Below are positions 2,298 to 44,809 of a DNA stretch of 64,000 nt, in pieces. Within the stretch, counting starts at the first letter, position 1. Each line of letters begins with the position of its first letter. Origin of the DNA: Flavobacteriales bacterium (GTDB lineage: Bacteria; Bacteroidota; Bacteroidia; Flavobacteriales_F; PHOS-HE28). The notes under the pieces are model-generated. The model was not told the DNA's origin. It worked only from the letters and a program-made list of their open reading frames with translations, and did not search any database. Made by a program: the position numbers and the translations under genes. The stretch spans positions 193,830 through 257,829 of the forward strand of contig JAMLHB010000003.1 in NCBI GenBank assembly GCA_023957375.1, read 5' to 3'.

Positions 2298-5200
2298 ATG
2301 AAAACAATGGCAACACACTTGTGCCGGCAATTCCCAATGCTCATGCTCGCCTGGCTGGTCCCTTGGGGCGCTTCGGGCCAGATGAACATCACTGCCATAG
2401 GCACGGCCGAAACCCAGGATTTTTCATCCATGGGCACCACTTCTTCGGGTACAGCCAGTTCTACCTTGCCTGCGGGCTTCCGCGTCGTGGCTGGTGCGGC
2501 CACGGCCGATTGGAACAGCGGCGCCACCACGGCAAATAATGCAGCCGGCACCAGCGGCACTGGCGTCTTCGCGGCCAATTCCGCGGGCGGTGCCTACAAC
2601 ATGGCGAGTGGTGCCATGGCAAGTTCCACTGACCGAGCCCTGGGCTTTCTTACCAGCGGCAGCTTCACTTCACCCCGCTCCATCATCTTGAAGCTGCACA
2701 ACAACACGGGGGGCATGATCGGTTCCCTTGACTTGGCATGGGACTATGAAAAGTACCGCAACGGTACGCGCGCCGTGGGCTGGACCTTCTTCCACGGCAA
2801 TACCTCCATGCCGGGCAATTCTGACGGCAACGGGGATTTCAGCTACGGCTCGGATGCCAATAACACCTTCGTCAGCAATCCCCCGGCCAGCACGCCCATG
2901 GCCTTCACCATTAGCGGACTTGCCATTCCCGCCAATGGCGATTACTATTTACGCTGGACGTACACCGGAAACGGTGGAAGCACAAATGCGAAGGCACTGG
3001 CCATTGACAATTTCAGCGTAACGGCACATGTGCCTCCACCTCCGTATAACGATGAATGCAGTAATCCCGGATACGTGGGCACAATCGCCTACGGAAACTG
3101 CACGGGCAACGAAACCACAGGCACCACGGCCGGAGCCACCCCCAGCGGCGGTTCATGCAACGCCTCGGACAACGATGTGTGGTACTACTTCACCTCCACC
3201 ACCGGCAGCGTCACCTTTGTGGACCTGGCCGAAGTGAGTGCTTCAGGCATGGGCATTGAAGTCTTCGAGGATGCCTGTGGCGGCACCAGCGTATACTGCG
3301 GAAGTGGCATCAACCACACCGTGCCCACAACCTCCGGACACTATTACTACATGCGGGTGTCCAGCAGCGTGCCAGGAGGCTTCACGGTATGCGTAAGCGC
3401 CAGCACCCCGAACGATGAATGTGACAACCCCACGAATGTGGGCGTATATGCCTACGGCACATGCGCAGGCAACGAAACCACTGGAACCACGGCGGGGGCC
3501 ACGCCCAGCGGCGGCTCATGCAACGCCTCGGACAACGATGTGTGGTACTACTTCACCTCCACCACCGGCAGCGTCACCTTTGTGGACCTGGCCGAAGTGA
3601 GTGCCTCAGGCATGGGCATTGAAGTCTTCGAGGATGCCTGTGGCGGCACCAGCGTATACTGCGGAAGTGGCATCAACCACACCGTGCCCACAACCTCCGG
3701 ACACTATTACTACATGCGGGTGTCCAGCAGCGTGCCAGGAGGCTTCACGGTATGCGTAAGCGCCAGCACCCCGAACGATGAATGTGACAACCCCACGAAT
3801 GTGGGCGTATATGCCTACGGCACATGCGCAGGCAACGAAACCACTGGAACCACGGCGGGGGCCACGCCCAGCGGCGGCTCATGCAACGCCTCGGACAACG
3901 ATGTGTGGTACTACTTCACCTCCACCACCGGCAGCGTCACCTTTGTGGACCTGGCCGAAGTGAGTGCCTCAGGCATGGGCATTGAAGTCTTCGAGGATGC
4001 CTGTGGCGGCACCAGCGTGTACTGCGCAAGCGGCACCAACCATACCGTTCCCACCATTCCCGGTCATGCCTACTTCATGCGGGTGTCCTCCACCGCACCG
4101 GGCACCTTCACACTGTGCGTAAGTGCAAGTACAACCAACGATGAATGCGATAATGTAATCGGCGTAAGCACCAATGCCTACGGGTATTGCACGGGCAACG
4201 AAACTTCCGGCACCACGGCGGGGGCCACGCCCAGCGGCGGCTCATGCAACGCTTCGAACAATGATGTGTGGTACTACTTCACCTCCACCACCGGCAGCGT
4301 CACCTTTGTGGACCTGGCCGAAGTGAGTGCTTCAGGCATGGGCATTGAAGTCTTCGAGGATGCCTGTGGCGGCACCAGCGTGTACTGCGCAAGCGGCACC
4401 AACCATACCGTTCCCACCATTCCCGGTCATGCCTACTTCATGCGGGTGTCCTCCACCGCACCGGGCACCTTCACACTGTGCGTAAGTGCAAGTACAACCA
4501 ACGATGAATGCGATAATGTAATCGGCGTAAGCACCAATGCCTACGGGTATTGCACGGGCAACGAAACTTCCGGCACCACGGCGGGGGCCACGCCCAGCGG
4601 CGGCTCATGCAACGCTTCGAACAATGATGTGTGGTACTACTTCACCTCCACCACCGGCAGCGTCACCTTTGTGGACCTGGCCGAAGTGAGTGCTTCAGGC
4701 ATGGGCATTGAAGTCTTCGAGGATGCCTGTGGCGGCACCAGCGTGTACTGCGCAAGCGGCACCAACCATACCGTTCCCACCATTCCCGGTCATGCCTACT
4801 TCATGCGGGTGTCCTCCACCGCACCGGGCACCTTCACACTGTGCGTAAGTGCAAGTACAACCAACGATGAATGCGATAATGTAATCGGCGTAAGCACCAA
4901 TGCCTACGGGTATTGCACGGGCAACGAAACTTCCGGCACCACGGCCGGGGCCACGCCCAGCGGCGGCTCATGCAACGCTACGGACAATGATGTGTGGTAC
5001 TACTTCACCTCCACCACCGGCAGTGTCACCTTTGTGGACCTGGCCGAAGTGAGTGCTTCAGGCATGGGCATTGAAGTCTTCGAGGATGCCTGTGGCGGCA
5101 CCAGCGTGTACTGCGGAAGCGGCACCAACCATACCGTTCCCACAATTCCCGGTCATGGCTACTACATGCGGGTCTCCAGCAGCGTGCCAGGCGGCTTCAC

Positions 5201-8200
5201 GGTATGCGTAAGCGCCAGCACCCCGAACGATGAATGTGACAACCCCACGTATGTGGGTACAAACGCCTACGGCACATGCGCAGGCAACGAAACCACTGGC
5301 ACCACGGCGGGGGCCACGCCCAGCGGCGGCTCATGCAACGCTACGGACAATGATGTGTGGTACTATTTCTCCTCCACCACGGGCTCCGTCACCTTTGTAA
5401 ACCTCACCGAGGCAGGCGCAACCGGCATGGGCATCGAAGTCTTTGAGGATGCCTGCGGCGGCACTAGCGTGTACTGCGGAAGCGGCACCAACCACACCGT
5501 GCCAACTACTTCAGGCCATGGGTACTACATGCGGGTTTCCAGTAGCGTGCCAGGCGGCTTCACGGTATGCGTGAGCGCCAGCACCCCGAACGATGAATGC
5601 GACAACCCCACATACGTGTACACAATCGCCTACGGAAACTGCACCGGCAACGAAACCACGGGCACCACGGCCGGGGCCACGCCCAGCGGCGGCTCATGCA
5701 ACGCTTCGGATAACGATGTGTGGTACTACTTCTCCTCTACCACTGGCTCCGTCACCTTTGTAAACCTCACCGAGGCAGGCGCAACCGGCATGGGCATTGA
5801 AGTCTTCGAGGATGCCTGTGGCGGCACCAGCGTTTACTGCGGAAGCGGCACCAACCACACCGTGCCCACTACCACAAATCACGTGTACTACATGCGGGTA
5901 TCCAGCAGCGTGCCAGGCGGCTTCACGGTATGCGTGAGCGCCAGCACCCCGAATGATGAATGCGACAACCCCACGTATGTGGGTACAAACGCCTACGGCA
6001 CTTGCGCAGGCAACGAAACCACGGGCACCACGGCCGGAGCCACGCCCAGCGGCGGCTCATGCAACGCTACGGACAATGATGTGTGGTACTACTTCTATCC
6101 GGGTGGACACACCTCATGCTACATCAACCTCACGGCACTTACCGCGTCAGGCTTGGGAATTGAGGTGTTCCAGGACAGCTGCGGCGGAGCCGGCGTGTAT
6201 TGCGCTGTTGGCACATCACACACGGTGCCTGTCAACCCGAACTTGGTTTACTACATGCGTGTGTACAGCTCCACGCCCGGGGACTTCCAGATCTGCGTGA
6301 GCGTTCCTCCGGACAATGACGATTGCGCCTATCCCACCTCCTTGAACTATTGGACCAGCAACCTTTGCCCGGATGCCACTACGGGCACCACCACCGGTGC
6401 ATTGCCCACCGCAGGCGCCACATGCGGTGCAGGTGCCGCTGATGTGTGGTACCAGTATTACAACACCTATCCCACTACCGTTTTCGACCTGACCTCCTTG
6501 GGAGCGGACGGGCTGGGTATGGAGGTGCTGGATGCTTGCGGAGGAACAAGCTACTACTGTGGAATAGGATTGCACCATATAGTACCGAACGTTCCAACCA
6601 CTTGGATTTACGTTCGTGTTTTCAGTACTACACCCGGTGATTTCGCCTTCTGTTCACGCCCAGGCACCGCAAATGATGCATGCAACTGGGCACAGGGCCT
6701 CACCCTCCAATTGGGTGCGGACTGCCCCTCGCAAGCCGTTCCGGGTACAACCACGGATGCCAGTTTGGATGGTCCTGTGCCATGCCAACCAGCCGCAGTG
6801 GCCGATGTGTGGTACTACGCTTACTCCAGCGATGCCACCGCCATGGATGTGAATTTGACCGCAGTAAGTGCAGGTGGCCTGGGCCTGGAGGTGCTTAGCG
6901 GTTGTGGCGGTACGAGCCTGTACTGCGCCAGCGGCACCAGCCATAACTTCCTGGTGCAACCGTACACTTCCTATTGGTTCAAGGTGTTCAGCACCGTTCG
7001 TGGCGACTTCACCATTTGTACAAGCCAAGCAACAGGCGCCGAAGACTGTTTGGGTGTACCCGGTGGCCCGGCTGTGCCCGGCTCTCCGTGTGATGACCAG
7101 AATGCCAACACCATCAACGACGTGTACCAGGCCAATTGCGTTTGTGCGGGTTATGATTGCCTCGGTGTGCTGGGCGGAACCACAGGACCGGGTTCGCCTT
7201 GCCAGGTATCCACCGCCATTGATGGGACTCCGTTCTACGGTGTGTACGATGCCAACTGCCAGTGCACGTGGACCGATTGCCAGGGCATAACCAATGGAAG
7301 TGCCTACCCCGGCTCAGCTTGTGATGACAACAACCCGCTCACCAACTATTCCTACATGAGCAGTGCCTGCACATGTACGGACTATTACGACTGCGCCGGT
7401 GCAGTAAACGGAACAGCCTTGCCAGGAACACCATGCGGTTGGCCTAACGCACCCTTCGACGGCACCTGGAGCGCCAACTGTACCTGTGATTGGGTGGATT
7501 GTGAAGGCACCACAAACGGATATGCAATGCCTGGCTACCCCTGCGATGACGGCAACCCGCAAACCATAAACGAGGTGTGGCAAGCTGATTGTATCTGCAG
7601 CAATGGAACGGATTGCGTCGGCGTGGTTGGGGGCACAAATCTGCCCGGCTCGCCATGCACGTGGCCCTATGCTCCTGTAGGTGCAAATGGTACGTGGAGC
7701 GCCAACTGTGCCTGTGAATGGGTGGATTGCGAAGGAACGGCAAACGGTTCTGCCCTACCTGGAACTGCTTGCGACGACGGTAATCCGCTTACCCAGAACG
7801 AAGCTTGGCAAGCCAACTGCACTTGTAGTGGTGGAACGGACTGCCTTGGCGTGATAGGAGGAACCAATCTTCCCGGAACCCCATGCAGCTACCCCTACGC
7901 GCCCAATGGGGCAACTGGAACATGGAGCGCCAACTGTGCCTGCGAATGGGTGGACTGCCTTGGAGTTGCAAACGGCAATACTTTACCAGGAACAAGTTGT
8001 GATGATGGGAGCGCAAGTACGGGCAACGACATCTACAACGCCAATTGCGTGTGCGCAGGCGAACTGATTGATTGCGCCGGAGTTCCCGGCGGTACGGCAT
8101 ACACCGACAATTGCGGGACCTGCGTGGGCGGCAACACCGGTCTGAACCCCTGTGTGCAAGATTGCCATGGCGATTGGGGCGGCACCGCCTACACCGACAA

Positions 8201-10754
8201 TTGCGGCACCTGCGTGGGCGGCAATACCGGCCTGAACCCCTGCACAGCGGATTGCCACGGTGACTTCGGCGGTACGGCCTACACCGACAACTGCGGCACC
8301 TGCGTGGGAGGCAACACCGGCCTGAACCCCTGTGTGCAAGACTGCCATGGCGATTGGGGCGGCACCGCCTACACCGACAATTGCGGGACCTGCGTGGGCG
8401 GCAACACCGGTCTGAACCCCTGTGTGCAAGATTGCCATGGCGATTGGGGCGGCACCGCCTACACCGACAACTGCGGCACCTGCGTGGGAGGCAACACCGG
8501 CCTGACCCCCTGTGTGCAAGACTGCCATGGCGATTGGGGCGGCACCGCCTACACCGACAACTGCGGCACCTGCGTGGGCGGAAACACCGGCCTGAACCCC
8601 TGTGTACAAGACTGCCATGGCGATTGGGGCGGCACCGCCTACACCGACAACTGCGGCACCTGCGTGGGCGGCAACACCGGTCTGAACCCCTGCACCGCTG
8701 ACTGCCACGGCGACTTCGGCGGAACAGCCTACACCGACAACTGCGGCACCTGCGTGGGCGGCAACACCGGTCTGAACCCCTGTGTACAGGACTGCCATGG
8801 CGATTGGGGCGGCACCGCCTACACCGACAACTGCGGAACCTGCGTGGGCGGCAACACCGGTCTGAACCCCTGCACCGCTGACTGCCACGGCGACTTCGGC
8901 GGTACGGCATTCACCGACAACTGCGGCACCTGCGTGGGCGGAAGCACCGGCCTGAACCCCTGTGTACAAGACTGCCATGGCGATTGGGGCGGCACCGCCT
9001 ACACCGACAACTGCGGCACCTGCGTGGGCGGCAACACCGGTCTGAACCCCTGCACAGCGGATTGCCACGGCGACTTCGGCGGAACAGCCTACACCGACAA
9101 CTGCGGCACCTGCGTGGGCGGTAACACCGGTCTGAATCCCTGCACGGCGGATTGCCACGGCGACTTCGGCGGTACGGCTTACACCGACAACTGCGGCACC
9201 TGCGTGGGCGGCAACACCGGTCTGAATCCCTGCACGGCGGATTGCCACGGCGACTTCGGCGGTACGGCTTACACCGACAACTGCGGCACCTGCGTGGGCG
9301 GCAACACAGGACTTACAGCTTGTGTGCAAGATTGCGAAGGAACATGGGGCGGCACGCATACGGCGGGCACACCCTGCAACGATGGAAACGCCAGCACCCA
9401 GAACGATGCCTACGATGCCAATTGCATCTGCACCGGCATCCCCGTGGGTCCCTGCACCGGCAACCAAGTGGTGGTCAACATCACCACGGATGCGAGCCCT
9501 GCACAGTTGAGCTGGGAGATCCGTGACGATGCAAACATGCTGGTCGCCTCCGGCGCGCCCTCCGTGGCCAACAGCCTGAACAGCGAAACAGTCTGCCTCG
9601 GTTCTGCGCCCACCAGTGCCTGCTACACGTTCAAGCTGATGGACAGCTTCGGCGACGGCATCACCGGCGGCGGCTGGGAGCTGCGCACCACGGGCGGAAA
9701 GCTCCTGCTGCGCGACGACTTCGCCTTCGGCAGCCAAAGCCCCTCCACCACCCCGCAGTGGGGCGGATACGGTGGCGGACACAGCTTCTGCCTGCCCGCA
9801 GGACCCTCGCGCATCATGGCCAACGAGTGCAACGTGTTCACCAACGGCATGTACGACAAGGTCTACAGCAACAAGGTGACCGGTGCCACCCAGTACCAGT
9901 TCGAATTCAGCGACCCCGACGCAGGCTACGTGCGCCGCATCGCTCGCCCGCACAACTACGTGGTGTTCTACGAGATGGTCTCCAGCCCGCTGGTGCCCGG
10001 CGTAGTGTACTTCACCCGCGTGCGCACCAATGAGCAAGGCCCCTTGGCCAGCGCACACTGGGGTTCGGGCTGCGAGCTCGGCTTGGGCATCGCCCAGGTG
10101 GTGCAGTGCACCCAGCTGATCCAGGCGCCCGCCTACGGCCACTCCTGCAACGAGACCCGCAGCTTCATCGCGCCCTACAACTACCTCTATGCCAAGCCCG
10201 TGACCGGCGCCACCACGTACACCTTCAAGATCACCGGTGACGACGGCAACTACAACAGCGGCATCGAGTTCGTCCGCAACACCTACATCCTCGCACTGGG
10301 CTGGGGCATCGGCGAGGCGCCGGCCTTGACGGACCAGACCACCTACCAGGTGCAGGTGCGGGTAACGGTGAACGGCATCGAAGGAACGTACTGCGGCAAC
10401 GTGTGCAACGTCACCATCGACAACAACCCGAACTTGGGCGAACAGGTGCTGACCACCTCCGGCAATGCCAGCCTGTGGCCCAACCCGGTGCGTGACGGAC
10501 AGGTGAACCTGAGCATCGGCGGTCTATTCACAGGGTCTCCTGCGGATGACCCTGTGGCGACCGCCGACCAGCGCATCAGCGTGGACATCCAGGACATCTA
10601 CGGCAAGCAGGTGTTCGCTCAGGAGTTCAGCAACAGCGGCGAGCACTTCAGCACCATCCTGCAACTGCCCAAGGACATTGCCAGCGGTGTGTACATGGTG
10701 AACATCACCGTGAACGGTGTGAAGAGCGTGCAGCGGTTGAGCATCATCCGGTAG
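2298..10754 (+). CDS. Giant repetitive T9SS-secreted surface protein (2818 aa)
   Basis: The start is the ATG at 2298 because it opens a signal peptide (MKTMATHLCRQ, a hydrophobic core, ending near GASGQ); the frame is open further upstream without one. Order: residues 29-250, a Ser/Gly/Thr-rich beta-type domain; 251 to ~1582, eleven ~121-residue units starting ND-E/D-C, nine of them almost identical (3048-6314); 1583-1924, nine Cys-rich units with DCxG and a closing CxC; 1925-2344, fourteen 30-residue units containing DNCGTCVGGNTG; then one more Cys unit and the cassette shared with the neighbours, ending in a type A sorting tail (LWPNPVRDG to RLSIIR). It should be exported by Sec, then by T9SS to the surface; a role as adhesin or surface layer is inference. 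It ends in the shared terminator at 10821. Confidence 0.9.
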   Translation: MKTMATHLCRQFPMLMLAWLVPWGASGQMNITAIGTAETQDFSSMGTTSSGTASSTLPAGFRVVAGAATADWNSGATTANNAAGTSGTGVFAANSAGGAYNMASGAMASSTDRALGFLTSGSFTSPRSIILKLHNNTGGMIGSLDLAWDYEKYRNGTRAVGWTFFHGNTSMPGNSDGNGDFSYGSDANNTFVSNPPASTPMAFTISGLAIPANGDYYLRWTYTGNGGSTNAKALAIDNFSVTAHVPPPPYNDECSNPGYVGTIAYGNCTGNETTGTTAGATPSGGSCNASDNDVWYYFTSTTGSVTFVDLAEVSASGMGIEVFEDACGGTSVYCGSGINHTVPTTSGHYYYMRVSSSVPGGFTVCVSASTPNDECDNPTNVGVYAYGTCAGNETTGTTAGATPSGGSCNASDNDVWYYFTSTTGSVTFVDLAEVSASGMGIEVFEDACGGTSVYCGSGINHTVPTTSGHYYYMRVSSSVPGGFTVCVSASTPNDECDNPTNVGVYAYGTCAGNETTGTTAGATPSGGSCNASDNDVWYYFTSTTGSVTFVDLAEVSASGMGIEVFEDACGGTSVYCASGTNHTVPTIPGHAYFMRVSSTAPGTFTLCVSASTTNDECDNVIGVSTNAYGYCTGNETSGTTAGATPSGGSCNASNNDVWYYFTSTTGSVTFVDLAEVSASGMGIEVFEDACGGTSVYCASGTNHTVPTIPGHAYFMRVSSTAPGTFTLCVSASTTNDECDNVIGVSTNAYGYCTGNETSGTTAGATPSGGSCNASNNDVWYYFTSTTGSVTFVDLAEVSASGMGIEVFEDACGGTSVYCASGTNHTVPTIPGHAYFMRVSSTAPGTFTLCVSASTTNDECDNVIGVSTNAYGYCTGNETSGTTAGATPSGGSCNATDNDVWYYFTSTTGSVTFVDLAEVSASGMGIEVFEDACGGTSVYCGSGTNHTVPTIPGHGYYMRVSSSVPGGFTVCVSASTPNDECDNPTYVGTNAYGTCAGNETTGTTAGATPSGGSCNATDNDVWYYFSSTTGSVTFVNLTEAGATGMGIEVFEDACGGTSVYCGSGTNHTVPTTSGHGYYMRVSSSVPGGFTVCVSASTPNDECDNPTYVYTIAYGNCTGNETTGTTAGATPSGGSCNASDNDVWYYFSSTTGSVTFVNLTEAGATGMGIEVFEDACGGTSVYCGSGTNHTVPTTTNHVYYMRVSSSVPGGFTVCVSASTPNDECDNPTYVGTNAYGTCAGNETTGTTAGATPSGGSCNATDNDVWYYFYPGGHTSCYINLTALTASGLGIEVFQDSCGGAGVYCAVGTSHTVPVNPNLVYYMRVYSSTPGDFQICVSVPPDNDDCAYPTSLNYWTSNLCPDATTGTTTGALPTAGATCGAGAADVWYQYYNTYPTTVFDLTSLGADGLGMEVLDACGGTSYYCGIGLHHIVPNVPTTWIYVRVFSTTPGDFAFCSRPGTANDACNWAQGLTLQLGADCPSQAVPGTTTDASLDGPVPCQPAAVADVWYYAYSSDATAMDVNLTAVSAGGLGLEVLSGCGGTSLYCASGTSHNFLVQPYTSYWFKVFSTVRGDFTICTSQATGAEDCLGVPGGPAVPGSPCDDQNANTINDVYQANCVCAGYDCLGVLGGTTGPGSPCQVSTAIDGTPFYGVYDANCQCTWTDCQGITNGSAYPGSACDDNNPLTNYSYMSSACTCTDYYDCAGAVNGTALPGTPCGWPNAPFDGTWSANCTCDWVDCEGTTNGYAMPGYPCDDGNPQTINEVWQADCICSNGTDCVGVVGGTNLPGSPCTWPYAPVGANGTWSANCACEWVDCEGTANGSALPGTACDDGNPLTQNEAWQANCTCSGGTDCLGVIGGTNLPGTPCSYPYAPNGATGTWSANCACEWVDCLGVANGNTLPGTSCDDGSASTGNDIYNANCVCAGELIDCAGVPGGTAYTDNCGTCVGGNTGLNPCVQDCHGDWGGTAYTDNCGTCVGGNTGLNPCTADCHGDFGGTAYTDNCGTCVGGNTGLNPCVQDCHGDWGGTAYTDNCGTCVGGNTGLNPCVQDCHGDWGGTAYTDNCGTCVGGNTGLTPCVQDCHGDWGGTAYTDNCGTCVGGNTGLNPCVQDCHGDWGGTAYTDNCGTCVGGNTGLNPCTADCHGDFGGTAYTDNCGTCVGGNTGLNPCVQDCHGDWGGTAYTDNCGTCVGGNTGLNPCTADCHGDFGGTAFTDNCGTCVGGSTGLNPCVQDCHGDWGGTAYTDNCGTCVGGNTGLNPCTADCHGDFGGTAYTDNCGTCVGGNTGLNPCTADCHGDFGGTAYTDNCGTCVGGNTGLNPCTADCHGDFGGTAYTDNCGTCVGGNTGLTACVQDCEGTWGGTHTAGTPCNDGNASTQNDAYDANCICTGIPVGPCTGNQVVVNITTDASPAQLSWEIRDDANMLVASGAPSVANSLNSETVCLGSAPTSACYTFKLMDSFGDGITGGGWELRTTGGKLLLRDDFAFGSQSPSTTPQWGGYGGGHSFCLPAGPSRIMANECNVFTNGMYDKVYSNKVTGATQYQFEFSDPDAGYVRRIARPHNYVVFYEMVSSPLVPGVVYFTRVRTNEQGPLASAHWGSGCELGLGIAQVVQCTQLIQAPAYGHSCNETRSFIAPYNYLYAKPVTGATTYTFKITGDDGNYNSGIEFVRNTYILALGWGIGEAPALTDQTTYQVQVRVTVNGIEGTYCGNVCNVTIDNNPNLGEQVLTTSGNASLWPNPVRDGQVNLSIGGLFTGSPADDPVATADQRISVDIQDIYGKQVFAQEFSNSGEHFSTILQLPKDIASGVYMVNITVNGVKSVQRLSIIR
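3048..7043 (+). repeat. 363-bp tandem coding repeats
   Basis: Units begin at 3048, 3411, 3774, 4137, 4500, 4863, 5226, 5589 and 5952, exactly 363 bases apart, followed by two diverged units from 6315 and about 6670. Each codes for ~121 residues running from NDEC to VCVSAST with a conserved DVWYYF core. The units at 4137 and 4500 are almost base-identical, so recent duplication or conversion is likely. Confidence 0.95.
7044..8069 (+). repeat. Nine diverged Cys-rich coding repeats
   Basis: Units of 36-40 residues start with DC(L/E/Q/A/V)G and end with a CxC pair after AN. Two subtypes partly alternate: one with CDD(G/Q)NxxT, one with CxWPxAP and GTWSANC. A tenth unit lies after the 90-bp array (about 9330-9440) and a similar one in the delta-60 protein (about 12225-12320). 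Confidence 0.85.
8070..9329 (+). repeat. Fourteen 90-bp tandem coding repeats
   Basis: Units begin every 90 bases from 8070 to 9240, each coding for 30 residues with four cysteines: DCxGD, GGTAYTDNCGTC, VGGNTGL and a final PC. Two variants, ending PCVQ or PCTA, are mixed along the array. No unit is frameshifted. Copy number is expected to vary between strains. Confidence 0.95.
10043..10440 (+). repeat. C-terminal cassette, near-identical in three genes
   Basis: This stretch, coding from LASAHWGSGC to VTIDNNP, is nearly base-identical to 1-398 and to about 12926-13323. The similarity to the delta-60 gene reaches further upstream, to about 9780/12660. The conserved block stops where each sorting tail begins. 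Confidence 0.85.
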
Positions 10755-10782
10755 GCTTCGGGCGCTTCAGCCTACTGACCTC

Positions 10783-10804
10783 AGGGTCCGCTTCGCGAGA
10801 CCTC
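10783..10804. repeat. Degenerate REP-like hairpin
   Basis: AGGGTC at 10783-10788, a 10-base spacer CGCTTCGCGA, and a damaged right arm GACCTC at 10799-10804. Spacer and left arm closely match the intact hairpin at 13622-13651 after the next gene. Confidence 0.5.
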
Positions 10805-10820
10805 AGGAAGCGCAAAAACG

Positions 10821-10848
10821 AAGGGCCGTTCCGAAAGGGGCGGCCCTT
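10821..10848. terminator. Hairpin terminator, copy 2
   Basis: AAGGGCCG pairs with CGGCCCTT around TTCCGAAAGGGG, the same hairpin as at 707-736, here 66 bases after the stop of the giant gene. Confidence 0.7.
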
Positions 10849-10999
10849 TGTGCTGTACAAGGCCGTAGGCTGAAACACTCGAATCCTACGCCTATGAAAC
10901 CCAAAGCCGGAGGGCCGTTCCGAAAGGATTGGCCATACGATGTGGCCGCGAAGGTGCACGATTGAACACAGCCTGATGATTTCCGGTGCTTCAATGAAA

Positions 11000-13621: not shown

Positions 13622-13651
13622 CCTCAGGGTCTGCTTCGCGAGACCCTGAGG
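13622..13651. repeat. REP-like hairpin
   Basis: CCTCAGGGTCT (13622-13632) pairs perfectly with AGACCCTGAGG (13641-13651). Its core AGGGTC-N10-GACCCT matches the hairpins in the adjacent array and those beside the transposase at 42940-43506. Confidence 0.65.
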
Positions 13652-13664
13652 GAGCGCAAAAACG

Positions 13665-13693
13665 AAGGGCCGTTCCGAAAGGGGCGGCCCTTT
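13665..13693. terminator. Hairpin terminator, copy 3
   Basis: Same AAGGGCCG / CGGCCCTT stem as at 707 and 10821, 57 bases after the delta-60 stop. It borders the 205-bp array; a half copy (GAAGGGCCGTT) lies near the array's far end at about 14951-14961. Confidence 0.7.
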
Positions 13694-13699
13694 GTGCTT

Positions 13700-14961
13700 G
13701 GTGGTTCGCGCAGGGTCCACTTCGTGTGACCTTACGCGAACCCAAACGAATGCCCTTTTCGCGAGGGCCTGTGCACCTAACAGGCCCGAAGCGATCTCCT
13801 CCTGCTCCTGCGGACAGAAGCGAGGAAGTACGCGGGAACTTCGCCGGGGAGATCGCTTCACGGCCAAATGCGCCGCGCGCGAAATGGATGGTGGGGAGAT
13901 CGCGGGTGGTTCGCGCAGGGTCCACTTCGTGTGACCCTACGCGAACCCAATAAGGATGCCCTTTCGCGAGGGCCTGTGCACCTAACAGGCCCGAAGCAAT
14001 CTCCTCTTGCTCCTGCGGACAGAAGCGAGGAAGTACGCGGGACCTTTGCCGGGGAGATCGCTTCGCGGCCAAATGCGCCGCTCGCGAAATGGATGGTGGG
14101 GAGATTGCGGGTGGTTCGCACAGGAGTCCACTTCGTGTGACCTTACGCGAACCCAATAAGGATGCCCTTTCGCGAGGGTCTGTGCACCCAACAGGCCAGA
14201 AGCGATCTCCTCTTGCTCCTGCGGGCAAAAGCGAGGAAGTACGCGGGAGCTTCGCCGGGGAAATCGCTTCGCGGCCAAATGCGCCGCTCGCGAAATGGAT
14301 GGTGGGGAGATCGCAGGTGGTTCGCGCAGGGTCCATTTCGTGTGACCTTACGCGAACCCAAACGAATGCCCTTTTCGCGAGGGTCTGTGCCCCCAACAGG
14401 CCCGAAGCGATCTCCTCTTGCTCCTGCGGGCAGAAGCGAGGAAGTACGCGGGAGCTTCGCCGGGGAGATCGCTTCGCGGCCAAATGCGCCGCTCGCGAAA
14501 TGGATGGTGGGGAGATCGCAGGTGGTTCGCGCAGGGTCCATTTCGTGTGACCTTACGCGAACCCAAACGAATGCCCTTTTCGCGAGGGCCTGTGCACCCA
14601 ACAGGGCTGAAGCGATCTCCTCCTGCTCCTGCGGGCAGAAGCGAGGAAGTACGCGGGAGCTTTGCCGGGGAGATCGCTTCGCGGCCAAATGCGCCGCTCG
14701 CGAAATGGATGGTGGGGAGATCGCGGGTGGTTCACGCAGGGTCCACTTCGTGTGACCCTACGCGAACCCAAAATGGGATGGCGGGGTTGGCCTCGCGAAA
14801 GGGGATGTCCATTTCGCGAGGGTCTGTGCCCCCAACAGGCCCGAAGCGATCTCCTCTTGCTCCTGCGGGCAGAAGCGAGGAAGTACGCGTTCGCCGGGGA
14901 GATCGCTTCGCGGCCAAATGCGCCGCTCGCGAATTGGGGCGGCCAATGGCGAAGGGCCGTT
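13700..14961. repeat. Non-coding array of six 205-bp units, each with three hairpins
   Basis: The start motif GGTGGTTCGCG recurs at 13700, 13905, 14110, 14316, 14521 and 14726, a period of 205-206. The sixth unit carries a different stretch after 14770. In unit 1 I see three inverted repeats. The first is TTCGCG...CGCGAA enclosing AGGGTC-N10-GACCTT (13705-13740). The second is GGGCCTGT/ACAGGCCC (13765-13787). The third is GAAGCGATCTCC at 13788-13799 with GGAGATCGCTTC at 13848-13859. Long open frames cross the array on both strands but are low-complexity and frame-independent, so I treat it as non-coding. It lies between a strongly terminated gene and a convergent lipoprotein gene. Confidence 0.9.
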
Positions 14962-41341: not shown

Positions 41342-42235
41342 CTATCCGGGGATCAACCCCAAAGAAAAGAGCAATGCCGTTACTAAGGTGGAAAGGGCCA
41401 GCACTTTCATCTGCGGGTCCAGCTCGCGCGGCACCGTGTTGCGCTGCACCCTGCGCAGGTGGCGGTCCAGCAGCACAAAGCCCAGTACGAAGGCCAGCTG
41501 CCACCAGCCGCGGAAGTGCATCATGGTAAACACCAGCAAACAGCCGAAGCCGCCGTAGATCAGGGCAGCGTGGTAGCGCTTGGCATGGGCCGTACCCATG
41601 CGCACCGCCATGGTGCGTTTGCCATTGGCCGCATCGCCCACCGCATCGCGCATGTTGTTCAGGTTGAGCATGGCGGCGGACAACAGGCCGATGCCCAACG
41701 CGGGCAGCACGGTGGCCGTCCGGAGTTCGCCGGTATGCAGAAAACAGGTGCCCATCACCCCGGCAAGGCCGAAGAAGAGCACCACGCTGATGTCGCCCAA
41801 ACCCGCATAGCCATAAGGATTGCTGCCGAAGGTGTACTTCACGGCGGCGCCGATGGCCAGCAGGCCGAGCAGGAAGAAGCCCAACGTGGTTGCCGTGAAC
41901 CCCAGCGCCACGATAATCAACGTGATGCCCGAGGCCAAGGCCAGCCCGCCACAGACCCATAAGGCGCGCTTCATTGCGGCCGGTGCTATGGCGCCGCTCT
42001 GCACGGCGCGTTGCGGACCCACGCGGCTTTCATCATCGGTGCCGTGCTCATGATCGCCCAGGTCATTGGCCAGGTTGCTTAGCACTTGCAGCAGGATGGC
42101 GGTGAGCAGTGCCAGCCCGAACACGGACCAGCGGAAGCCGTGGAAGAACCCGGCCAGCGCACTGCCCGTGATGATGCTGCTGATGGCCAAGGGCAGCGTG
42201 CGGGGGCGGAAGGCGTGGAGCCAGGGGCGGAGCAT
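41342..42235 (-). CDS. menA: 1,4-Dihydroxy-2-naphthoate prenyltransferase
   Basis: 297 residues, a UbiA-family membrane enzyme that attaches the polyprenyl chain to DHNA. The first Asp-rich motif appears as NLANDLGDHEHGTDD; the second region near NLNNMRDAVGDAANGKRT supplies the other Asp cluster. Eight or nine hydrophobic segments alternate with these loops. Its start codon overlaps the stop of the DUF5615 gene by one base (TAATG), so the toxin-like pair and the men genes share a transcript. Confidence 0.93.
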   Translation of the reverse strand: MLRPWLHAFRPRTLPLAISSIITGSALAGFFHGFRWSVFGLALLTAILLQVLSNLANDLGDHEHGTDDESRVGPQRAVQSGAIAPAAMKRALWVCGGLALASGITLIIVALGFTATTLGFFLLGLLAIGAAVKYTFGSNPYGYAGLGDISVVLFFGLAGVMGTCFLHTGELRTATVLPALGIGLLSAAMLNLNNMRDAVGDAANGKRTMAVRMGTAHAKRYHAALIYGGFGCLLVFTMMHFRGWWQLAFVLGFVLLDRHLRRVQRNTVPRELDPQMKVLALSTLVTALLFSLGLIPG

Positions 42236-42564
42236 TACGCGATCAGCTCCATGCGGTCAGGATACACGTTGACCAACTTGCTCGTTGGTAGCGCCGCCTC
42301 TATTGCGGGCCATCGGCTGTAGAGCCACTGGATAAACGCGGACCGCCGCAAATTGCCAATGCGGAGGTGTACCACACGCGGTGGCGGCCCTGCGAGTTGG
42401 ATGCGTTGCGTAAAGTCGGCGTCCTTGCTGATGATCACCAGGTCATGGGCCGTTGCATACTGCCACAGATAGGAATCGCTGGGCTGGGCACCCAATTGCC
42501 GCGAATGCATGATCGGCAATGCCGTAGGCATGGGAAGGTTTTCATCAATGAGCAGGCCTTTCAT
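42235..42564 (-). CDS. DUF5615 PIN-like protein, putative toxin
   Basis: 109 residues. The N-terminus MKGLLIDENLP carries the acidic residues of PIN-like folds, followed by ATAHDLVIISKDADF with further Asp residues; both are the hallmark of DUF5615 (Mut7-C/PIN-like) proteins, which are paired with DUF433 proteins. Predicted ribonuclease activity is inference. It overlaps the DUF433 gene upstream (ATGA at 42561-42564) and menA downstream by one base. Confidence 0.8.
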   Translation of the reverse strand: MKGLLIDENLPMPTALPIMHSRQLGAQPSDSYLWQYATAHDLVIISKDADFTQRIQLAGPPPRVVHLRIGNLRRSAFIQWLYSRWPAIEAALPTSKLVNVYPDRMELIA

Positions 42565-42788
42565 GCCAAGGGCAACGCCGAGTAGCTGTTGCCCATCATG
42601 CGAGCGGCCACTTCCACACAGGCAAGTACTTGTTCGCGGGTGATCGACGGATATGCCGCGAGCACTTCGTCCACATCATCCCCGGCAGCCAACAGTTCCA
42701 ATACGGATCGGACGGTAATGCGCGTACCTTTTACTACGGGCATTCCGTTTGCCACGTCCGGCTTGATCTCGATCAATTCGTGCAGCAT
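42561..42788 (-). CDS. DUF433 protein, putative antitoxin
   Basis: 75 residues. DUF433 signature: IEIKPDVANGMPVVKGTRITV near the start, then SVLELLAAGDDVDEVLAAYP and ITREQV, a small winged-helix-like fold. The family is the usual partner of DUF5615 and is assumed to bind DNA and the toxin. First gene of a unit that continues into DUF5615, menA, menC and menE. Confidence 0.82.
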   Translation of the reverse strand: MLHELIEIKPDVANGMPVVKGTRITVRSVLELLAAGDDVDEVLAAYPSITREQVLACVEVAARMMGNSYSALPLA

Positions 42789-42891: not shown

Positions 42892-42921
42892 CCGCAGGGT
42901 CTCCGCTTCCGGACCCTGCGG
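42892..42921. repeat. REP hairpin downstream of the transposase
   Basis: CCGCAGGGTC (42892-42901) pairs perfectly with GACCCTGCGG (42912-42921) around a 10-base spacer TCCGCTTCCG, 18 bases after the transposase stop. A T-rich stretch near 42930 follows. It is in the opposite orientation to the REP at 43549. Confidence 0.8.
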
Positions 42922-42939
42922 TCCCCGTGTTTTTGTACC

Positions 42940-43506
42940 TCATGCCCGTAACGCTATTTGATAGTTCTCCACCGGTGCGTTCGAGGCATCGCCCCGTTCG
43001 TAGAACGCAGCGCTGGAATGCGGATAGTCCAAGTAGTTCTCCGCAAGCATCCACTTCCCCTTCACCGGGTTGGCGTGGATGTAGTCCAGCTTCTGTTGGA
43101 TCATCGCCTCATCGTAACACTCGCGGATATCCGATGAAGGCATGAACACCCGGCAAACCTGCCCACGGGCCGCATCGCTGGGCCGCACGGCATCTTTCAG
43201 CGTAACCAGCAGGCCATGCTCTTCGAGGTCGACCAATCGGCTCCGGATCTCGTACGCCAGGAACCGCTTGGCATTGGCCAGCAGCGCATTGATGGACAGC
43301 CCTTCCGGGGTGTGGATGAGCAAGTGTACATGGTTGGGCATGATCACATAACCGAAGATGCGGCACCCCTTGGTTTTAGCGATGTGCATCCAGCGGCAAC
43401 CATGGTCGTAAGCATCCGCCCGCTCAATGAGCGGCAGCCAATTCCAGCACGTGAACGTGCAATAGAACGTGGCGCCATCAGTGCGTTGGAGGGTGCGCAC
43501 GGGCAT
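42940..43506 (-). CDS. REP-associated tyrosine transposase (RAYT, Y1 family)
   Basis: 188 residues. An HUH-type Y1 transposase: the metal-binding HUH motif is YVIMPNHVHLLIHTP, and the nucleophile Tyr lies in IQQKLDYIHANPVKGKW, the typical end motif of RAYTs. RAYTs are domesticated IS200-like enzymes that nick or cleave REP hairpins and are thought to spread them. REP hairpins flank this gene on both sides in opposite orientation. The upstream one abuts a lipoprotein gene cut after 59 codons, so insertion probably broke that gene. All catalytic motifs are intact, so it may be active. Confidence 0.9.
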   Translation of the reverse strand: MPVRTLQRTDGATFYCTFTCWNWLPLIERADAYDHGCRWMHIAKTKGCRIFGYVIMPNHVHLLIHTPEGLSINALLANAKRFLAYEIRSRLVDLEEHGLLVTLKDAVRPSDAARGQVCRVFMPSSDIRECYDEAMIQQKLDYIHANPVKGKWMLAENYLDYPHSSAAFYERGDASNAPVENYQIALRA

Positions 43507-43548
43507 GCTTGGTGAAAGTATGGAAAGTTCATCATCACACTGTGGTTG

Positions 43549-43576
43549 CGTAGGGTCCCGAGGCGGAGACCCTGCG
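43549..43576. repeat. REP hairpin upstream of the transposase
   Basis: CGTAGGGTC (43549-43557) pairs with GACCCTGCG (43568-43576), one T-G pair, around the 10-base spacer CCGAGGCGGA. The homology between lipoprotein paralogues ends 9 bases further on, at 43585. Confidence 0.75.
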
Positions 43577-43584
43577 AGAGTTGG

Positions 43585-43763
43585 AACGAAATTTCCATCT
43601 CATACCTCCAATTCCCAAAAGTATCATACACATCGTATGTGCCAACGAATTTCTGTCGTCCATCCACCGGGACTGAAGGGCTTGGTGCCATAACATCCCG
43701 CTTACAGCCGTAGCTGCAAACCAATGTGGCAGCCAGTGCCAAAGCGATGTTCAACTTGCTCAT
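43585..43763 (-). pseudogene. Truncated lipoprotein paralogue A
   Basis: The first 59-60 codons of the five-member lipoprotein family (MSKLNIALALAATLVCSYGC as signal, then DGRQKFVGTYDVYDTFGNW). Apart from the signal region the bases equal copy E (45680-45858) almost exactly. Homology stops at 43585, directly beside the REP hairpin and transposase. The open frame runs on through the REP to 43344 but codes for no family sequence there. So the gene has lost about 100 residues. Confidence 0.75.
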
Positions 43764-43796: not shown

Positions 43797-44288
43797 CTAC
43801 TCCTCCTCCCGCTTCACCGCATACTCCCGGTAGCTCTGCCTAAAGTAGGGCACTCCATCCGCCACATAGAAGGCAATGTTGTCCTTCAGGTAGGACATCC
43901 GAATAGTGTCAGCCACCAACGTATTGTTGAACAAAGTGTCGTATTCGCGGAAAAGGGCCCATCTATGGCCGGAATGGTCCACGATTCCGAACCATCCAAA
44001 TAGATTTAAATAGTTTGATGCATCTTCCTTATCATGCTGAATATAGAAGTCAAATTCCCCTCCCCACCCATTGATAAATAAAGAATCGTAAGTGCCATTC
44101 TCATTATGCTTTATTATAGCCATTTCATATAGCCAATTTCCGATAGTATCATAAACGTCGTACATGCCAACGAATTTCTGTCGTCCATCCACCGGGACTG
44201 AAGGGCCTGGTGCCATAACATCCCGCTTACAGCCGTAGCTGCAAACCAATGTGGCAACCAGCAGAAGAGCTACGTTCTGCTTGTTCAT
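43797..44288 (-). CDS. Lipoprotein paralogue B
   Basis: 163 residues, intact. Signal MNKQNVALLLVATLVCSYGC with lipid attachment at Cys 20. Family layout: conserved DGRQKFVGMYDVYDTIGNW, a variable middle with GWGGEFDFYIQ, then WALFREYDTLF, and a strongly conserved end (YLKDNIAFYVADGVPYFRQ, then SYREYAVKREEE). The size suits a lipocalin-like or small beta-barrel lipoprotein, but I do not recognise a known family. The middle third is AT-rich compared with both ends. Function unknown; probably outer-membrane and surface-exposed. Confidence 0.7.
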   Translation of the reverse strand: MNKQNVALLLVATLVCSYGCKRDVMAPGPSVPVDGRQKFVGMYDVYDTIGNWLYEMAIIKHNENGTYDSLFINGWGGEFDFYIQHDKEDASNYLNLFGWFGIVDHSGHRWALFREYDTLFNNTLVADTIRMSYLKDNIAFYVADGVPYFRQSYREYAVKREEE

Positions 44289-44320: not shown

Positions 44321-44809
44321 TCACTCCCGCTTTACCGCATACTCCCGGTAGCTCTGCCTAAAGTATGGCACTCCATCCGCCACATAGAAGGCAATATTGT
44401 CTTTTAGGTAGGACATACGAAGCGTGTCGTGGACCAAGCTGTTATATTGAAACACATAATCATACTCTGAGAAAAGGGCCCAACGATGGCCTTCATAATC
44501 TGTAATTCCAAAATCTCCTATAAAATTCAAGTAATTTGAAATGTTTCCTATGTTTCGCTGTACGTATACATCAAAGGCCCCCCCCCATCCTTCAATGAGG
44601 AGTGAATCGAAGGGACTGAAATCATGAGCTACTGAAATTTCCATCTCATAGCGCCAATTTCCAAGCGTGTCATAAACATCGTACACTCCTACGAACTTCT
44701 GCCGACCGTCTACTGCGACTACATCATCGGGTTCCACAACATCCCTCTTACAACCAAAGCAGCAAGCCAAGATGGCAACTAAAGGGAGTGCCATGTTCAA
44801 CTTGCTCAT
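44321..44809 (-). CDS. Lipoprotein paralogue C, with G9 tract
   Basis: 162 residues, intact. Signal MSKLNMALPLVAILACCFGC, lipid attachment at Cys 20. It shares the family core and the conserved C-terminus SYREYAVKRE. The codons for W-G-G-A in EGWGGAFDVYVQ contain nine consecutive G bases on the coding strand (44578-44586), at the same place where copy D is frameshifted. A one-base slip would end the protein early. The signal peptide differs from B, D and E but resembles truncated copy A. Confidence 0.7.
   Translation of the reverse strand: MSKLNMALPLVAILACCFGCKRDVVEPDDVVAVDGRQKFVGVYDVYDTLGNWRYEMEISVAHDFSPFDSLLIEGWGGAFDVYVQRNIGNISNYLNFIGDFGITDYEGHRWALFSEYDYVFQYNSLVHDTLRMSYLKDNIAFYVADGVPYFRQSYREYAVKRE
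44578..44586 (-). repeat. Nine-G homopolymer inside lipoprotein C
   Basis: Nine C on the plus strand, coding as TGG GGG GGG Gcc on the minus strand. Long G tracts of this kind slip during replication and switch genes on and off in many surface-protein loci. Confidence 0.6.

Follow-up and report, generated by a model that had tools for sequence, protein, structure and literature searches.

A REPtron joins a single-strand-DNA HuH transposase (RAYT, or TnpA_REP) to its cognate repetitive extragenic palindrome (REP). In the Escherichia coli REPtron (TnpA_REP, PDB 4er8; RAYT group 2), REPs occur beside the gene and in alternating clusters, and each is an imperfect hairpin with important unpaired bases (a two-base mismatch), a free loop and an asymmetric 5' GTAG foot. 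Residues W94-Q95 of this enzyme are described, in the main text of the 2018 report, as part of the GTAG-recognition region (PMC6006769). For E. coli TnpA_REP both the bulge and the foot are important, and the choice of cleavage dinucleotide can be set by the guide tetranucleotide; in the Marinomonas REPtron the guide GTAC leads to cutting at GA/GT (PMC8266576). The REPINs and GTAG REPs of Pseudomonas and Stenotrophomonas (RAYT group 3) are perfect short GTAG palindromes that are dispersed, often in inverted pairs, and linked to a RAYT. CGTC-tagged REPs, whose host phyla include the Bacteroidetes, form dimers, have 8-9-bp stems starting with AT, 4-5-nt loops and mostly CCA tails, and lack a transposase; REPs within replication and repair genes are known from the same work (PMC3733652). 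A 2025 survey of REPs (PMC12306157) does not mention RAYTs. TnpA_REP subclass 2.6 (Bertels RAYT group 5), reported in 2018, comprises Bacteroidetes RAYTs with flanking "atypical" structures that lack GT[AG]G and have copies elsewhere in the genome; according to its main text, the guide-recognition region is not conserved, the proteins (179 aa) carry NH[LIV]H, WQ and YIH[QN]NP motifs, and the hairpins, given without a consensus, are called weaker (PMC6006769). The sequence-only reading had considered that a Bacteroidota family sitting behind secreted-protein genes and expanded into a tandem array would be new; by the main text of that report, RAYT/REP pairs in Bacteroidetes as such were already on record (PMC6006769).

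The window (the whole 64,000-nt stretch of Flavobacteriales DNA that was analysed) contains a Y1_Tnp open reading frame bracketed by two hairpins in inverted orientation, as had been claimed from the sequence:

42892-42921, + strand: REP hairpin downstream of the gene, in the opposite orientation to the upstream copy, foot outward
42940-43506, - strand: RAYT gene (TnpA_REP-like Y1/HuH transposase), 188 aa; Pfam, NCBIfam and AlphaFold2 model
43548-43577, - strand: upstream REP hairpin on the gene's strand, foot outward; TCGCAGGGTC-T-CCG-CCT-CGG-GACCCTACGC
43578-43763, - strand: truncated lipoprotein gene; homology to two intact tandem paralogues ends within about 15 nt of the REP

The open reading frame is a RAYT. 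Pfam Y1_Tnp matched it (E=3.6e-7), and the MPNHVH (HuH) and QKLDYIHANP (catalytic Tyr) motifs are both intact. NCBIfam REP_Tyr_transpos scored the window protein (P0001) at 62.9 bits, under its cut-off of 80, and matched all 36 aligned members of its clade, here called clade A, among which H59, H61 and Y142 are invariant. Foldseek with the AlphaFold2 model (pLDDT 93.9) gave 4er8 as the best PDB match (E=3.5e-8), above ISDra2 and IS608, and a RAYT profile searched against the PDB also placed 4er8 first (E=1.4e-6). By predicted fold and by sequence, the window RAYT is nearer to TnpA_REP than to TnpA_IS200. Clade-A RAYTs have RVFxxSxD at the position of W94-Q95 in E. coli TnpA_REP; the clade lacks this Trp-Gln pair, which is linked to the reading of GTAG, and its repeats are without GTAG.

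The gene neighborhood has features of its own. The truncated lipoprotein gene is the third member of a small-lipoprotein tandem family (VGxYDVYDT...) that adjoins the RAYT, with the other two at 43797-44288 and 44321-44809 (-). Directly behind the RAYT unit are two small overlapping genes (42235-42788, -), one of which is a DUF5615 gene (Pfam); its partner, judged by eye, resembles DUF433, and the pair is likely a toxin-antitoxin system.

Both flanking hairpins contain AGGGTC-N10-GACCCT exactly (42896-42917 and 43552-43573). The other copies that had been proposed to share this motif fared differently: the motif is exact at 13626 (in the hairpin at 13622) and within the 205-bp units of a tandem array, present with two mismatches at 10783, and so degenerate at 786 that the covariance model did not accept it. 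An extra copy, beyond those noted before, was found inside a coding gene at 10528-10557. With up to two mismatches allowed, the window holds 14 sites vs. 2.9 expected, a number that none of 100 shuffles reached, and the whole genome holds 36 exact sites vs. none for a reversed control pattern. The sequence-only reading had asked whether the motif is any commoner than base composition predicts; it is, and a chance origin of the sites is excluded.

The spacing of exactly 10 bases between the arms, also noted from the sequence, holds because the spacer has an inner structure: a 1-nt bulge, 3 bp, a 3-nt loop and the 3 bp that close it. On the correct strand, the hairpin consists of a 5' YYC foot, a lower stem of about 10 bp ending in GTC, one bulged base, a 3-bp upper stem and a GNA triloop (e.g., AGGGTC-A-CAC-GAA-GTG-GACCCT, AGGGTC-T-CGC-GCA-GCG-GACCCT and AGGGTC-T-CCG-CCT-CGG-GACCCT). 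The CTTCG that had been seen in several spacers is a CGAAG loop read in reverse. When sites were picked by their arms alone, the full upper stem was found in 33 of 52 distinct spacers vs. 4% expected. The outer arms change together (AAGGTC/GACCTT, CATC/GATG, CCTC/GAGG), and 52 diverse hairpins gave 173 double-changed cells vs. 45 when shuffled, with 95.3% pairing vs. at most 47.5% when slid. With DNA parameters, ViennaRNA gave this fold for either strand of the copies in the window. An Rfam scan of the window returned a tRNA only.

The REP hairpin has strand polarity with a 5' foot, YYC in general and mostly GYYC in the genome that contains the window. Positions -7 to -4 in that genome read G[TC][TC]C with 4.5 bits summed, vs. 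about 1 bit on the mirrored 3' side. Outside the genus, pyrimidines occupied positions -5 and -4 in 41 of 46 hairpins vs. 11 of 46 at the mirrored 3' position (p=2e-10), and YYC was conserved on the 5' side only. C-GNA-G triloops have exceptional stability in DNA, as would suit a substrate of single-stranded DNA. The GTAG/GYRG foot of the GTAG REP superfamily was not found. A classic GTAG tag had been considered because of GTAGGGTC at 43550 and in the array (- strand); this is an infrequent variant of GCAG across the stem base (5 of 42 copies, alignment column 4) that occurs on either strand relative to the bulge, and the tag was rejected.

The genome (3.83 Mb in 4 contigs, 99.8% complete) contained at least 123 distinct hairpins in 52 clusters by the covariance model, whose counts are lower bounds because 150 candidates were scored per genome. 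Orientations alternate within several clusters (two examples are +-+-+-+-+-+ at C1:1889298 and +--+-+-+-+--- at C3:453364); the step from one hairpin to the next is mostly 40-56 bp, and the arrangement resembles that of BIMEs. Mapping the copies to intergenic sites, a check proposed with the original motif, placed 92 of the 123 outside predicted ORFs; the stretches concerned are 77% coding, and coding status and gene contexts come from a simple, home-made, codon-based gene finder. The window RAYT is flanked by hairpins of a kind that is also dispersed in the genome.

Clade A was monophyletic in a FastTree phylogeny (support 0.79, rising to 0.94 after four basal members were removed) and separate from the other Bacteroidota RAYTs, which form clade B (GWVDVFTR type, WQ mostly kept). 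Clade-A RAYTs were detected in 14 of 45 genomes of the host genus and also in Cytophagales, Chitinophagaceae, other Bacteroidota and single Parcubacteria and Deltaproteobacteria MAG contigs. Their upstream hairpin is typically + and their downstream hairpin typically -, feet outward, and the nearest downstream hairpin often lies 5-35 nt past the stop codon. A scan for structure only (7 bp, a 1-nt 5' bulge, 3 bp and a 3-nt loop, with no model) gave 64 matches, spread over 18 of the 20 clade-A loci from outside the genus, vs. 0.2 in shuffles; the GTC...GAC core and GNA loops (26 of 44) emerged unprompted, and most other geometries gave few matches. The same bulged geometry had no match in 23 clade-B loci. 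Model R2 (E<=0.001) found the hairpin in 37 of 40 clade-A loci, some of which had supplied its training sequences, vs. 0 of 40 control loci, nearly all of them other Y1 genes, with sister-clade and IS200 loci among them. With R2, a clear flanking hairpin was absent at L093, L136 and the fragment L086, and the matches at L017 were weak with R1 and R2 (E 0.07 and 0.04) and were left out of the counts.

The association extends to whole genomes. Outside the genus, all 15 genomes with a clade-A RAYT held dispersed copies (5-100, lower bounds) vs. 1 of 12 without (Fisher 9e-7), so that co-occurrence in relatives, on which the sequence-only reading had made its case depend, was borne out. Among the 45 genus genomes, median model counts were 31.5 with a clade-A RAYT vs. 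8 without (p=2.7e-4, uncorrected for phylogeny; this and the other p-values given here treat related sequences as independent), and p was 0.12 when the test was limited to the four RAYT genomes outside the training set. Several genus genomes without a clade-A RAYT hold 34-80 copies, and orphan REPs therefore exist; a search of REP-rich genomes of this kind for a hidden clade-A RAYT found only sister-clade or remoter RAYTs with no such hairpin beside them. In G047, from another family of the same class, the hairpin model gave ten matches and no close clade-A RAYT was seen; the only RAYT found there, L207 (E=2e-12), has no such hairpin alongside. A comparison of REP divergence with the RAYT tree, also proposed earlier, showed that the arms follow the tree: REP arm distance tracks RAYT distance (Mantel r = 0.25, p = 0.0014), and the arm types AAGGTC (support 0.90) and CATCGTC (0.98) map to RAYT subclades. 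Clade-B loci (L036-L054, L139, L021, L022, L024) have hairpins of a different form, an unbulged 10-bp stem with a 3-nt loop, at 7 of 23 loci (20 matches, none in shuffles), which are probably the REP class of the sister clade.

Compared with the described systems, the clade-A pair shares with E. coli its fold, HuH and Tyr residues, REPs beside the gene, alternating clusters, an imperfect hairpin and an asymmetric 5' foot. It differs in having a YYC foot and no WQ, and a single 5' bulged base with a conserved GNA triloop in place of the two-base mismatch and free loop. The Pseudomonas and Stenotrophomonas repeats are similarly dispersed, often paired and RAYT-linked, but lack the bulged stem and have another foot. 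The CGTC superfamily was considered because the foot here is sometimes CGTC, TGTC or CCTC, and dimers are a further shared feature; it was ruled out by stem, loop and transposase association, and stem length and start, loop, tail and transposase all differ from the published REPs (PMC3733652). Subclass 2.6 is alike in its non-GTAG "atypical" hairpins with genome copies in Bacteroidetes, but the window RAYT (RVFxxSxD, YIHANP, 188 aa) does not show its full motif set, and clade A as a whole (RVFxxSxD for WQ, YIHxNP, mostly 185-200 aa) differs from the published description, which fits the sister clade (GWVDVFTR) better (PMC6006769); clade A may nevertheless belong to the subclass. The hairpins described here are strong, with a fixed bulge, a GNA loop and a YYC foot. 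As far as the main texts compared go, the explicit consensus, the clade specificity and the polymorphic in-frame insertions are new for this lineage. Whether these REPs constitute a distinct superfamily beside GTAG and CGTC, with a YYC foot, a GTC-[bulge]-stem-GNA core and a RAYT clade of their own without Trp-Gln, is in our judgment evenly balanced. If they do, guide and cleavage code would have co-evolved, and by the Marinomonas guide rule (PMC8266576) a foot ending in YC would predict cutting at a G-R dinucleotide and not at CT.

We read the window RAYT and its hairpins as a REPtron, with a probability of about 0.8. The REP would be read as a folded single strand, the RAYT would bind the bulged hairpin and foot, as the E. 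coli enzyme does, and its tyrosine would cut beside the hairpin, by analogy with the E. coli and Marinomonas enzymes. It may then copy or move the REP into other single-stranded sites, singly or as inverted pairs, which would give alternating clusters; cleavage and mobilization are drawn here from the E. coli model. Clade A probably reads the YYC foot and the bulge or loop in place of GTAG.

Evidence of mobility came from sites that are filled in some genes and empty in others. One lies in the window:

10528-10557, - strand: in-frame REP within the sorting-domain part of the 2853-aa T9SS protein; a net gain of 30 nt over the 840-aa paralogue, which lacks it

Elsewhere, in-frame REPs, mostly antisense, were found inside genes that we take, from reading their sequences, to encode LpxH (three copies), Mfd, an MG2-type protein, a heptosyltransferase and an ArnT-like protein. 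The LpxH REP peptide was absent from 22 of 29 orthologues read and present at the same junction in seven REP-bearing species; of the 12 Mfd orthologues that could be read, 10 lack the peptide and those of G000 and G002 have it. The lpxH gene, normally an essential lipid A gene, has an insertion hot spot between the VDMEL and RYINLGDW motifs (L103, L142-L148), where the seven species carry differing in-frame REP-derived peptides, three in a row in one case. Judged from these empty and filled lpxH and mfd sites within the genus, REPs appear to insert at new sites.

The RAYT unit itself is placed differently among species, next to the lipoprotein genes here, what we take to be folC in G031, and presumably murF and an integrase fragment in G012. 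These loci are non-syntenic between species at 76-87% identity, G010 has two near-identical copies 3.2 kb apart, and the lipoprotein paralogue in the window is truncated at the REP, all of which would suit an IS200-like insertion sequence that still moves itself with its flanking hairpins and leaves the dispersed hairpins as MITE-like remnants. We consider this unlikely, though deserving of serious attention, because a genome mostly has only one or two clade-A copies, which are divergent, the pattern of a domesticated RAYT, the hairpins far outnumber the RAYTs, and the genome studied has no identical multi-copy element.

Hairpins might instead spread without the transposase, through segmental duplication and gene conversion at the ends of T9SS genes. 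The 205-bp array bears on this point:

10779-10808, - strand: REP copy behind the 2853-aa T9SS gene
13622-13651, - strand: REP copy immediately after the 840-aa T9SS gene
13700-14773, no strand assigned: 205-bp tandem array of 5.2 units, each a REP palindrome of about 44 bp and a second repeat module of about 150 bp
13708-13737, - strand: array REP 1 (foot GTTC), covariance model
13913-13942, - strand: array REP 2, covariance model
14118-14148, - strand: array REP 3 (degenerate), covariance model
14324-14353, - strand: array REP 4, covariance model
14529-14558, - strand: array REP 5, covariance model
14734-14763, - strand: array REP 6, covariance model

The REP of the array unit has the foot GTTC and reads GGTTCGCGYAGGGTC-A-CAC-GAA-GTG-GACCCTGCGCGAACC. 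The module of about 150 bp, which holds nested inverted repeats (GCGATCTCC...GGAGATCGC), forms tandem arrays of its own largely without REP at L124:961-2007 (G000 C1 ~1791360-1792406) and L132:1865-3185, and REP and module recur together behind other T9SS genes. The array REPs run head to tail whereas dispersed clusters alternate, and the array is therefore best seen as a tandem-duplicated composite with the REP as passenger, which would have grown by ordinary tandem duplication of the unit and not by REP transposition alone. The claim that the REP family built the array stands in that every unit contains a REP, and falls in that the independent module makes the REP not the sole builder. The 2853-aa gene also has near-identical 363-bp and 90-bp internal tandem repeats (3073-6095 and 8088-9335).

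The REPs had also been said to sit behind secreted-protein genes, which was partly upheld. Of 37 genes with a hairpin facing their 3' end, 10 had a Por_Secre_tail match vs. 3 of 50 controls (CHU_C match; p = 0.013), but several of these T9SS genes share an identical terminator-like hairpin of 33-35 nt and duplicated C-terminal DNA, so that the enrichment may reflect segment duplication. The terminator-like hairpin (GGGCCGTTCCGAAAGGGGCGGCCCTTTGTG) occurs in the window at 708-742, 10821-10855 and 13665-13698, and identical or near-identical copies follow at least seven gene ends in the genome, mostly of type IX sorting-domain genes. The duplicated array units and T9SS 3' ends and the T9SS enrichment thus favor duplication, and recombination or the duplication of segments could be a further route for REPs, as it clearly is for the array. 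As a general account duplication is improbable, given that conserved genes, lpxH and mfd among them, carry short in-frame insertions, that alternating clusters stand at unrelated sites, and that related RAYTs of other families are surrounded by hairpins of this class with different primary sequences.

That the hairpins are RNA elements of host genes, terminators or mRNA-stabilizing 3' hairpins, with an incidental link to the RAYT, would agree with the intergenic majority, many of them behind genes, and REPs elsewhere act on mRNA. This reading is largely refuted and retains very little probability: both orientations alternate in clusters, in-frame copies inside coding sequence are mostly antisense, the link is strictly to one RAYT clade across phyla and not to its sister clade, and the conserved terminator-like hairpin of the T9SS genes is a different element. 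An operator or nucleoid-protein binding site, which a dispersed palindrome might suggest, is scarcely credible since the asymmetric bulge, covarying arms and GNA loop suit a folded single strand and the arms vary between genomes while the structure is kept.

Under the REPtron reading, the non-GTAG RAYTs of Bacteroidota gain a substrate that is concrete, has a defined polarity and can be searched for, and co-evolution of RAYT and REP thereby becomes testable, by setting foot and bulge against the altered recognition loop. The REPs land in frame in conserved genes such as those for LpxH and Mfd as peptides of about 10 residues that are polymorphic between species. The pairing of enzyme and hairpin recurs across the phylum with a structural signature of its own, unlike the GTAG-tagged repeats of the Proteobacteria.
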